Origin: Caenorhabditis elegans
Taxonomy: Eukaryota; Nematoda; Chromadorea; Rhabditida; Rhabditidae
DNA: 64,000 nucleotides
NCBI RefSeq assembly: GCF_000002985.6
Contig: NC_003283.11
Coordinates: 15,439,501-15,503,500, forward strand
Direction: 5' to 3'
In this document: piece by piece, positions 12,022-16,290 of the stretch
Position numbering within the stretch: position 1 is the stretch's first letter
How the letters are laid out: each line of letters starts with the position of its first letter
Notes under the pieces: generated by a model
Database searches by the model: none
The model's input: the letters and a program-made list of their open reading frames with translations, nothing else
What the model was told of the DNA's origin: nothing
Position numbers and translations under genes: made by a program

Positions 12022-12832
12022 TCTAGGTCACACTAAAGCCTCCAGGAATATACAAATATTCTAGTCGGTAGCTTGTACCTAGTTCACACCGAGAACTCAA
12101 TATTAAAAGAAGGATAAATAAAGAAATCAGAAAACTAGCAATTCCAGTTGTAAATGTCGGAGTAAATATATAGGAAAAGCGAGCACACAAAGTAACACCT
12201 CTGACTGACACATTAATCATAATTACTTTTCCGCGGGGTTTTGGCTGTTTTTATGAAAGTTCGACATGTTGATCAGAAACCTTTGTAGTTTGAAAATAGA
12301 ACGGGGGTTCGCAAAAAACTGAATTTTTATTATTCGACCTGTTCAAAAAATACAACTTTGGTTTAAAGCTAAAAAGGACATCCACGGGCAAACCATACGC
12401 GCACTTACCTATGTACCTCTAACGACTGCCTGCTTTTGGCTTTATTCCCGTCTATTCCATATCTACCTACACTTCTCGTGCCTGCCTACCTCATTCCTGC
12501 TTGTGTCCATCTACCTCATTAATATTTGCTTGGACATGCTTGCCTATCTCATGTGCATTTCAATGCCTACCTCATGCCTATGTGCGCCTGTTTCGTACCT
12601 ATCCCCCCACCGTTCCTGTCTGCCTACTTGCAGCCATAAATTAGTATGTATTTAGTGCAAAAAAAAGTGTTTTTTGTTGTTGATTTTAGAGCATGTCATT
12701 GCCAAAAAAGGAAAAAAAAGATGCTAAACGACAGGTGACATTTTGCTAGGCGTTTAACGCAGAAACATTGAGAAAGTTTCACCTGGCTAAACTAAAACTA
12801 CTTCTTTCCATTTCTTCGATTCTGTTTTCCCA
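12022..12832. other. intergenic with pyrimidine-rich degenerate repeat
   Basis: A 65-codon hydrophobic minus-strand frame at 12220-12023 ends right before the srw start and has no partner exon that I can find. From about 12390 to 12620 there is a degenerate repeat, described separately. Confidence 0.45.
12390..12620. repeat. degenerate CCTACCTCATGCC-type repeat
   Basis: Plus strand shows repeated variants of TGCCTACCTCAT, CTGCCTACC and CATGCCTATG over about 230 bp. Related GGCAGGTAGG/CCTGCC words appear near 18131-18160 and in a DPP4-gene intron near 34125-34200, so this is a dispersed family rather than a local artefact. Confidence 0.6.
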
Positions 12833-13425
12833 ATGAGCTCCTGTGAAAATCATTACCTGGCTAGTCCTGATTTTCTAAAAGTAGCTTTCCATACAATAAC
12901 AGCCTTGGCAACTCCAATACATGCATTTCGATTTTATTGTATTGTTTGTAAGACCCCAGTTCACATGAAATCCGTCAAATGGTTGTTGTTCAATTTACAC
13001 TGTTGGAGCATTTTCTTGATATTACTATCAGTTTTCTAGGTATTCCGTATATTTTACTACCTGCTATGGAAGGGTATGGACTAGGTCCAATTGAGTCGCC
13101 GGGTCTATTTTTCTACCTGGGAGTTACATTTGTCACTGGTAAGGATGGAGAAGTTTTAATAAGTTGAAGTGTTTTTTATCCGAAACTCTCAGAAAAAAAT
13201 TACAAACTAATTTGTAAGAAACATGTATTTGTCTAACTCGAATATTCACAAAACTAAAAAACACGTTTTTAGCCAATCACGTAAGTTTACCAGATTGAGT
13301 GTAAATATCCAATTTTTCGACCAACATTTTGGTGAAAATATTTTGACGATGGACGAAACAGTTATTTAAAACAATTATTTTTCAAAACTGTATTATAAGT
13401 TTTTATTTTACTCAGTACGTAATTA

Positions 13426-15286
13426 CTCAGATAACATAGAGTCACCTCTAATTAGCAAAAACAGCGAAAACCATTTCTAAGTAGCGCGGAAGCACTTCTA
13501 ACTAGCGCGGGATCAGTTCTAATTAGAAAACTCAGAAAAAGCCATATTTCACTTATCGCGGGGTCATTTCTAATTAGAAAAGCTACAAAAAACCATTTCT
13601 AATTAGTGCGGAGTCATTTCTATTTAGCAAAGCCAAATGAAGCCAATTATAATCAGCGCGAAATCATTTCTAATTAGCAATGGCAGATAAAATCTATTCT
13701 AATTAGCTCGAAATCATTTCTAACTAGCAAAACCAAAACAAAAAACTATTTCTATTTAGCTTTGTAATGGCTTTATCGATTTATTCTGTTTTTTATACAT
13801 TTTTTCGTCTTTTATCAGTTTTATTTCAAGTTGAATATATCGTTTAATTATGTGTTGCTTGTTGGAATTTTTGGCCCACTATTTATTATTTTGTACCAAC
13901 ATATGCATTTTCTCGTTGAATTCTTTTATACATAGTTTCCTTTAATACATAATATTTTTCAGAACTGGGATCAGTCAATCATGGTTTTGAGACACTCTAC
14001 AGAACGAGGTTCCTCGAAGTTGCAGCCGACAAGGATATCTTCAGCATCAAGCAAAAGACCGGAACCGCTAAGGGAACGCCGGTTAGTTTCGTTTCACGTA
14101 GAATTTCAAAAGCAGCGCTTGGCACTTGTCAGACTGCCTTGATAACAGACCCTTCTGTACACATTCTTAATGTTTATTTGTTAAGGACGTCAGCTCAACG
14201 ATATAAATTGCGGAGTCGACACTGAGGCCACCATCTACGTCAACTTTGGGCTTTTCGAAAAAGCCAAGAAGAGAAAGAAGAAGGCCAACACCACTCCAAA
14301 GAAGAATAAAAAAGAAACAAGATCAAGCGCGTCGTCCTCAAGTACTTCAAGGTAAGAACTGTGTATTTTCCCAGGAAAATCAGCTCTGGATAGAAAGTTT
14401 AGAATGATAAAAGTTTTGTCTTGAAACGATGCAATTTTTCACATTTTCAGATCGACGAGAACGACAAGACCCACCGTCTTTGCAAGGAAGTCAACAACCA
14501 TCCTTCGAAGGAGGAGTCTTCAAGACTCCAGCACGCCAACAGGTGCTACTGCGGAAGATGTCAAGTCAACTCATCGTTGACATCGCCACGGCCGCTGCCA
14601 CCTCTAGCAAGAAGCGATGATAGATGGAGAAGATGATTGTTAAATGAATTTTCCATTTTTTATTTTTCACAGAAATAAAATTGTTGATTTTTGTTATACT
14701 GTGTTATTTCGTACATAGAAAATTTCTGGGTAAGTGCGTTCAGCACACCACAACGACGCACACGATCTTGCTATAGTGAAAAAATAATCGGAGAAAGAAA
14801 CCTCTAAGTAAAATATTTTCCAGAAAAAGAGTGACTAAATTAGTTTACCCAGTTTTGGATCCCGAATCTCCATGACGCAGTTGTTGCGTTCCAAGAGAAT
14901 GATCTCGTTATTTAAGTTGCTTTCATTAGCAATCTCGCGCGAGGCGCCATAGCGCAACAGGTAAGGTCATCGGCGTTAGAGTGAAGCAATGTATGTTCAA
15001 TCCCCAGCAAAAACATTGGCGTTTAACAGAGCGGTTAGGGAGCAAAAACGGAGCCGGACATGGCAGGGAGAGCAAGATGTTGGAGAAGTGGTATCCCGGA
15101 ATAGCATGGCAGGAAACTGTCAAAAAACGTTTTTCATTTTCGATATCGAAAACCACTTCTAATTAGCTAGGAAGTCACTTCTAATCGACTGAAAAGCATT
15201 TCTAATTACGGTGACTCTAGAACTGGTCGAAATAGCTAATTAGAAATGGTTTTTTGCTAATTAGAGATGACTCTATGTTATCTGAG
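13426..15286. mobile_element. TA-flanked inverted-repeat element with captured gene
   Basis: The ends are 36-bp terminal inverted repeats (CTCAGATAACATAGAGTCA...) with one mismatch, flanked on both sides by TA (13424-13425 and 15287-15288), the target type of Tc1/mariner elements. Inside each end are many copies of a CTAATTAG palindrome (13440-13770 and 15150-15265). No transposase frame is present, so it would be non-autonomous. The interior holds a decayed ubiquitin-like/RPS27a gene copy (about 13970-14627) and a weakly tRNA-like stretch (about 14945-15005). It sits in intron 1 of the srh pseudogene. I cannot name the family from memory. Confidence 0.75.
13966..14627 (+). pseudogene. ubiquitin-like/ribosomal protein S27a gene fragment
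   Basis: Three exon-like blocks keep intron-exon structure. The first, after TTTTTCAG, reads as a ubiquitin-like start (RFLEVAADKDIFSIKQK) and ends before GTTAGT. The second reads GRQL-N-D...DTEATIYVN, then KKRKKKANTTPKKNKK, and ends at a GTAAGA donor. The third, after TTTTCAG, reads IDENDKTHRLCKE and, in other frames, GGVF and NRCYCGRC, ending in TSSKKR. This order (ubiquitin fold, Lys-rich linker, CxxC zinc ribbon) is that of S27a; in C. elegans the ubiquitin-like version is ubl-1. Several frameshifts break it. Kept introns argue for DNA-level capture rather than retroposition. Confidence 0.75.
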
Positions 15287-16290
15287 TAGGTGTGATCAAT
15301 CTCCAGTAAAAGCTAAAAAGAGAGATCAAGTATACAGCTGAAAAAAGTGGTTTCTTGTTAGATCTCTTCAGGTATTCAGAATATTCTATATGATTTTTTC
15401 TCAAAAATCTTGAATTTATCACGAAAAAATATTTTTATGATTTCATGCAACATGAAATCATACAAAAATCAAATTTTCCAACGCCAAGTAGTTATTAAAA
15501 GTATGAAAATCCAGCTTTCAGGTGTAATGACTTCGGTCTTTGTAACTTTCGAGAACCGATTTCATATATTGTTTGGTCAAAACTCGATTTGGAGGCATTT
15601 CAGAAAATATGCAATTGTGCTCAGTTATATTATTGTACCATTATAATACGTACCAATTCAATTTCTGCTTCCCGAACAAGTAACGGGACGAGAACTTTCT
15701 TGGGCGGTTGGTTTCTTTACGCTATTACTGGCAATGGTGAAAACTATTTGGCTTTATAGATGCTTGAATGTATGCCTGAATTGCCAAGTGACGGACGTCT
15801 ACTATTTGTTCTTGCAACGGAAATTCTTGGACCAGCACTCACAATGGGCCTCTCGGAAACTGTCCCAGCTATCGAAACTGGAACATTTCTAACTCTCAAT
15901 ATTTATCACTTGATATTTGCGAATCCAAGTGGGGTTTCCAGGAAAACTGTTCAAACTCAACATAGGCTCGTCGTCGCTTTGATTATCCAGGTTTTTTGAA
16001 AATAATTTGTTCGTACGTTATTTTAAAGTCTTCTATTCTTCAGACATCTGTTACAATATTCTTTTTTGTGGTCCCTGTCAACTTTCTAATAGGATTTGTA
16101 TATGTCCACTATCAAAATCAGATTCTTAACAATTTAATATTTTTTGCTCTCGCATGCCACGGCATAGCTTCCACATTTATTATGATATTCGCCGTTTGTA
16201 CGCGTTTCTCGCAGATATTCTACATCGAATGTGGTGCCAGTGTTTTCGCCATCAAGGACTCACTCACTGAGGCATATATAGTTTTTTTTA

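Follow-up and report, generated by a model that had tools for sequence, protein, structure and literature searches.

A captured ubl-1 gene in a probable Mirage-group transposon of Caenorhabditis elegans

The window, i.e., the whole 64-kb stretch of Caenorhabditis elegans DNA that was analysed (NC_003283.11, positions 15439501-15503500), contains at 12791-15999 a chemoreceptor gene or pseudogene of the srh family, whose plus-strand intron at 13139-15521, delimited by splice signals that were read in the sequence, holds a transposable element of ~1.86 kb; the placement of the element in this intron is a point absent from the initial annotation of the window. Pfam matches to the Srh domain (7TM_GPCR_Srh) lie on both sides of the intron, before 13139 and at 15760-15999, and the 41-aa piece just past the acceptor gave no Pfam match. 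The upstream Srh match changes frame near 13005, so that the element may have a pseudogene as its host.

The element is bounded by a left terminal inverted repeat on the plus strand (13426-13461, starting with CTCAGATAACATAGAGTCACCTCTAATTAG) and a right one on the minus strand (15251-15286). The repeats begin with CTCAGA, so that the termini of the element read CTCAG..CTGAG, and with the flanking TA included they extend to 38 nt (13424-13461 and 15251-15288) and are 97% complementary. Comparison of the flanks identified this TA as the two copies of a target-site duplication (13424-13425 and 15287-15288). On the plus strand, CTAATTAG-type repeats form a left subterminal array with ~50-bp spacing (13448-13767), a candidate transposase-binding region, and recur in the right subterminal part (15148-15250); the motif CTAATTAG itself occurs nine times in the window and all nine occurrences fall in the element, hence the terminal and subterminal repeats reported initially are both borne out. 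The interior, read on the plus strand, consists of a first exon (13963-14081) that has a splice acceptor immediately 5', a start codon at 13981 and internal deletions, a first intron (14082-14185), a frameshifted second exon (14186-14351), a second intron (14352-14450), and a third exon with a 3′ UTR that contains AATAAA (14451-14700). It is followed by a downstream core block of ~450 bp (14701-15147), which is part of the cargo and includes a tRNA-Arg(ACG)-like relic (14943-15003) that is clear in the subfamily B copies described below and weak in the window copy.

One gene in the genome (100,286,401 bases in 7 contigs were searched), located at III:3068.3-3069.2 kb, aligns with all three exons and both introns of the cargo; we take it to be ubl-1. 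The gene at III:3.068 Mb (locus L015) is an ordinary gene outside the element family, and its translation is an open three-exon ubiquitin-like/S27a fusion. Identity between cargo and parent is 68-78% over BLAST pieces and 75-78% for the window copy under stricter scoring (75% over bases 530-931 of L015, 78% over bases 1018-1275). The similarity is clear from the splice acceptor 5′ of the start codon (presumably a trans-splice site) onward, through both introns and past the poly(A) signal, beyond which it extends ~60-75 bp in subfamily B; the cargo has no recognisable promoter region. Under lax scoring the window copy matches ubl-1 for ~160 bp further 5', over an AT-rich stretch of low identity, which was left uncounted because the match begins at or near the acceptor both under stricter scoring and in copy IV17.32. 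Capture at the DNA level, as proposed initially, is supported by the presence of the introns and of some 3′ flank, and a retrocopy (processed pseudogene) was rejected since both introns align with ubl-1. The exons and introns first described were thus confirmed, but the term "fragment" does not hold, as nearly the whole gene is present with internal deletions and frameshifts. Pfam recognises the cargo poorly (Ribosomal_S27 was matched by exon 3 of the window copy at E 0.042, which falls short of the cut-off, and the pieces from exons 1 and 2 gave no match), therefore its identity rests on the DNA alignment to ubl-1. The second intron of the parent contains the snoRNA ceN106 (113.7 bits, Rfam), most of which is missing from intron 2 of the window copy; the copies retain only part of its first half.

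At least 37 matches to the window element were found in the genome. The loci examined were the window and 18 regions, one of which is ubl-1, which leaves 18 non-parental loci; ubl-1-derived sequence was found in seven of them, i.e., the window, IV17.32, V8.71 (exon-3 tail and 3′ UTR only), I14.68, X9.63, I11.5, and V18.34 (parts of exons 2 and 3). The family therefore has members both with and without the S27a segment, the comparison that had been proposed when the element was first annotated. The ends recur elsewhere too: the terminal repeat pattern has six exact matches in four elements, and a broader pattern, with up to 3 mismatches allowed, finds 14 ends of this type (type A). A second, type-B end pattern has 59 matches within 3 mismatches, composed of 17 exact ones, 2 other B-like ones and 40 of a third type. 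This third end type, CTCAGTCAAGAGCGAGTCACG, was seen at 23 places (e.g., I:9467607-9467816), 17 of which have both ends, mostly ~210 bp apart; these short elements are apparently MITEs of the same group. When the 14930-15145 part of the downstream block was used as a 216-bp query, it was found at 10 loci including the window, in 18 pieces, all of them in family elements. The elements with type-B ends (subfamily B) lack most of exon 1 and contain there a unit with exon-like structure (positions 1086-1322 of locus L013 and five other B elements); a 237-bp query with this unit matched six genome places, all of them B elements, two of them partial, with the V18.34 stub included.

One further locus, IV:7175646-7176276 (positions 1647-2277 of L017), has window-type ends around another gene-like cargo, in which two exons form an open frame of 195 aa. 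This frame has an acidic end, and its stop codon lies within a 34-bp stretch common to the S27a elements. A DNA search of the genome gave no further match to it, nor did a protein search at E up to 1, and no Pfam family scored above the cut-off; it could be captured, or it could be an old gene of the element itself.

Target-site duplications were counted in 12 two-ended copies, a set that includes neither the 5.6-kb family discussed below nor the short elements with ends of the third type. Identical 2-bp flanks were present in 11 of them (TA, AA, TT, CA, TT, TC, TA, TA, CA, TA, and TA), and in the remaining copy, III6.63, the left end is decayed; random dinucleotide pairs in the window match at a rate of 7.7%, at which 11 or more matches in 12 have a probability of 6.4e-12. 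Since six of the eleven duplications differ from TA, the family is not TA-specific, and the initial designation of a TA-target element has to be abandoned. A 3-bp flank match was found in none of the 12 copies, on which ground membership of the Harbinger superfamily, the type of Turmoil-1, was rejected. Duplications of 2-5 bp are described for the CMCT group (PMC12730594), and the 2-bp duplications of the element family fall in this range. The same source gives CA..TG as the CMCT termini in most cases, which makes them not strictly defining (PMC12730594); the element family has CT..AG, which speaks against a place in this group.

The window copy is without a transposase, and its description as non-autonomous is supported. 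An element with exact type-B ends at both sides and a TA duplication was found at X:16231745-16236011 (4267 bp). Compared with five B copies, it has 94-100% identity at the right end and 71-81% at the left end. Its terminal 33 bp reach only 0.63-0.67 in comparison with the window copy, which likewise counts against placing the latter in the Mirage group. Five putative exons, placed from splice signals in the sequence, read through for 386 aa, and these match DUF1258 in Pfam at E 2.5e-17 (63.7 bits, the curated cut-off being 33.1); a sixth stretch is open in the expected frame. The X element thus appears autonomous-like and is a candidate helper for B ends. DUF1258 is assigned to the Mirage group and placed near Transposase_21, itself a member of the cluster of CACTA transposases (PMC3985635). 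Non-TA duplications together with the DUF1258 partner point to a non-autonomous Mirage-type "Pack" element; a DUF1258 transposase in a same-ended element was found for subfamily B ends, and for the A ends of the window copy we only infer it. The autonomous partner that was sought for the element was accordingly found for subfamily B ends but not for those of the window copy, for which no transposase-coding copy with the exact A ends was found in the genome. A search of the genome for the Transposase_21 family (PF02992) returned no match, but neither did the control genomes, so that this absence carries no weight. Among the elements found, those nearest to the A ends of the window copy are 5.6-kb elements with ends CTCAGATARACTGGAGTCAC. 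This Mirage-like family has paired ends at IV:507687-513308 and similar copies at II:1.08M, II:14.69M, IV:0.70M, V:0.77M, and V:3.33M; within the 2.8 kb that was compared, identity is 99.5-100% among all of these except V:3.33M, and the near-identity of the five suggests recent activity.

The tRNA-like part of the downstream block was assessed by pairwise alignment with tRNA-Arg genes called by ARAGORN, the scores being compared with those of 1000 shuffles that keep single-base composition only. For tRNA-Arg(ACG), X9.63 scored 58 (tRNA positions 5-63 of 75 aligned) and V18.34 scored 48, values that no shuffle attained, and the window copy (31) and IV17.32 (34) were equalled by 1-2 shuffles. 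The scores for tRNA-Arg(CCT) were 37, 29, 23, and 21 in X9.63, V18.34, the window copy, and IV17.32, respectively, with 0, 9, 71, and 148 shuffles as high. ARAGORN called no tRNA in six loci, and Rfam gave none in eight loci at E up to 0.5 and, with the limit raised to E 10, none in a 131-bp piece of a single B copy. Judged from these alignments, a tRNA-Arg relic is likely in subfamily B, and we regard the one in A copies as inherited, in view of its position.

Frameshifting gaps or deletions are present in the retained exons of all six copies that contain intron 2, and with its reading frames broken the cargo looks dead. The window copy differs from ubl-1 to an even degree at all three codon positions (23/116, 20/116, and 19/118), and the counts are 24/113, 24/113, and 26/113 in IV17.32 and 16/114, 19/113, and 25/113 in X9.63 of subfamily B, for which the set used avoids the stretch that would pair the unrelated 5′ unit with exon 1. 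The third-position excess in subfamily B may come from silent changes of ubl-1 itself. In the introns the differences from ubl-1 amount to 60/203 (window copy), 42/163 (IV17.32), and 50/205 (X9.63). In a maximum-likelihood tree of 7 rows, which leaves out V8.71 (too short) and V14.95 (no S27a), each element lineage is ~0.19-0.22 changes per site away from the node shared with ubl-1, and the end branches of subfamily B measure 0.006-0.016. These branch lengths suggest that an old capture was followed, much later, by the spread of subfamily B.

Taken together, the window element is very probably a non-autonomous cut-and-paste transposon of the Mirage group (CACTA/Mirage/Chapaev) that contains a captured ubl-1 gene and was spread by transposition. 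In its breaks and its divergence the S27a segment resembles an ordinary pseudogene, so that it might be asked whether a retrocopy or a segmental duplicate of ubl-1 was invaded by unrelated inverted repeats and is not a cargo at all. Very little credence can be given to this, because a retrocopy would not contain introns, the same composite lies between paired ends at several loci with separate target duplications, and, among the matches listed, those that cover the S27a segment are either ubl-1 itself or family elements. Hardly any credence at all is left for a TA-specific element of the Tc1/mariner type: the window copy is flanked by TA and so are 5 of the 11 duplications, but the other six are AA, TT, TT, CA, CA, and TC and the partner transposase is DUF1258, and membership of Tc1/mariner was rejected on these two grounds.

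The number of captures and the history of the ends are separate matters. The tree divides {ubl-1, window} from {IV17.32, B} with support of 100/100, a split that, with ubl-1 as the sole outgroup, does not by itself prove a common ancestor after capture and would accommodate two separate captures of ubl-1, one in the window lineage and the other in the IV17.32/B lineage. This is improbable, though, given that all six copies containing intron 2 share the same gaps of 9, 8, and ~87 columns relative to ubl-1 (the longest being ~2 longer in the window copy) and have the 3′ block in an identical position, with 0.82 identity between the window copy and IV17.32 over 451 aligned bases; the shared gaps and the shared block argue for one old capture. 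More credible, although still tentative, is an addition to the preferred reading, namely that the S27a composite was moved from A-type to B-type ends by recombination, which would make subfamily B a re-capture by a second Mirage family. The cargo of IV17.32 is nearest to that of B (20/163 intron differences, vs. 52/161 to the window copy). In its right subterminal part, by contrast, IV17.32 is closer to the window copy (91/105) than to the B copies I14.68 (82/107) and I11.5 (78/100); moreover, B ends match the X element. On the other hand, the ends differ little, and their tree admits a root that agrees with the cargo tree, hence the ends may have diverged gradually.

According to the preferred explanation, i.e., a single capture by a Mirage-group element, an ancestral element would have acquired almost the whole ubl-1 gene with its introns, its 3′ UTR and a little of the 3′ flank at the DNA level, presumably through a template switch while an element was being repaired or replicated, and the tRNA-Arg-bearing block would have come together with ubl-1 or adjoining it. 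The composite would then have spread by transposition and given rise to the lineages of the window copy, IV:17.32 and subfamily B (four S27a-bearing copies), moved in trans by transposases like that of X:16231745-16236011, which would bind to the subterminal repeats; the cargo would have no coding function. One may ask if Mirage-type ends serve as a platform for cargo, with the S27a/tRNA block passed from A to B ends, another member taking up the cargo of IV:7175646-7176276, and partners still active, so that genes are being shuffled in C. elegans at present. This broader picture is speculative and we consider it unlikely. The capture would be a multicopy one in the best-studied nematode and in the Mirage group, with a known parent, a candidate helper and separate insertion sites, which would allow the steps of capture, spread and decay to be compared inside one genome.

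In plants, the capture of genes by cut-and-paste transposons is a familiar phenomenon, whereas fewer cases have been documented in animals. The plant Pack-CACTA elements, in which genes are captured by non-autonomous relatives of CACTA transposons, are likened here to the window element by description, Pack-CACTA being a plant CACTA and the window element an animal Mirage. In C. elegans itself, Turmoil-1, published in 2008, is a DNA transposon with captured fragments of rsp-2 (exons and an intron) and cpg-3, thus a worm DNA transposon with host coding sequence like the window element, and its captured sequence is described as showing no selection for maintenance of the frame (PMC2572040). It differs in being of the Harbinger type, for which 3-bp duplications are usual, and in having captures of 205 and 131 bp inside long terminal repeats (PMC2572040), whereas the Mirage-type window element holds a nearly whole gene internally. 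A survey of 100 animal genomes reports 370 Pack-TIRs, four of them in the worm reference genome (PMC8277862), and together with Turmoil-1 these weaken the view, put forward when the element was first noticed, that gene-carrying DNA transposons are rarely described in nematodes and that this one would be novel. The ubl-1 element is a real gene capture, though one with precedents. In the open-access full-text literature we recognised no description of the window element or of gene capture of the Mirage type; a link to the ubl-1-based siRNA sensor was set aside as a coincidence, since the ubl-1 promoter and UTR served there as a tool (PMC3334881).

Like the animal Pack-TIRs (PMC8277862), the window element has host DNA between the two ends of one TIR transposon, and its parent is without flanking TIR elements, as judged by matches of the window element, which over 3.5 kb around ubl-1 fall in the S27a segment alone. 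As multicopy Pack-TIRs of reference genomes the survey lists four (three in frog and one in alligator, none of them in worm), besides the Ssk-FB4 family of fly, and it ascribes the multicopy cases to transposition (PMC8277862). The window element differs in its parental identity of 68-78% and in being multicopy in worm. With this identity the cargo falls short of the 90% or more to the parent by which the survey filtered its candidates (PMC8277862), a filter that concerns age and not mechanism; such a filter would miss the ubl-1 element, which suggests that it loses older captures. The named family MIRAGE1 is reported to be one of those with most insertions across wild strains (PMC5850821). 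With the Mirage/DUF1258 transposons (PMC3985635) the B-ended partner on X shares the DUF1258 protein, whereas the window copy has, instead of a transposase, the captured ubl-1 gene.
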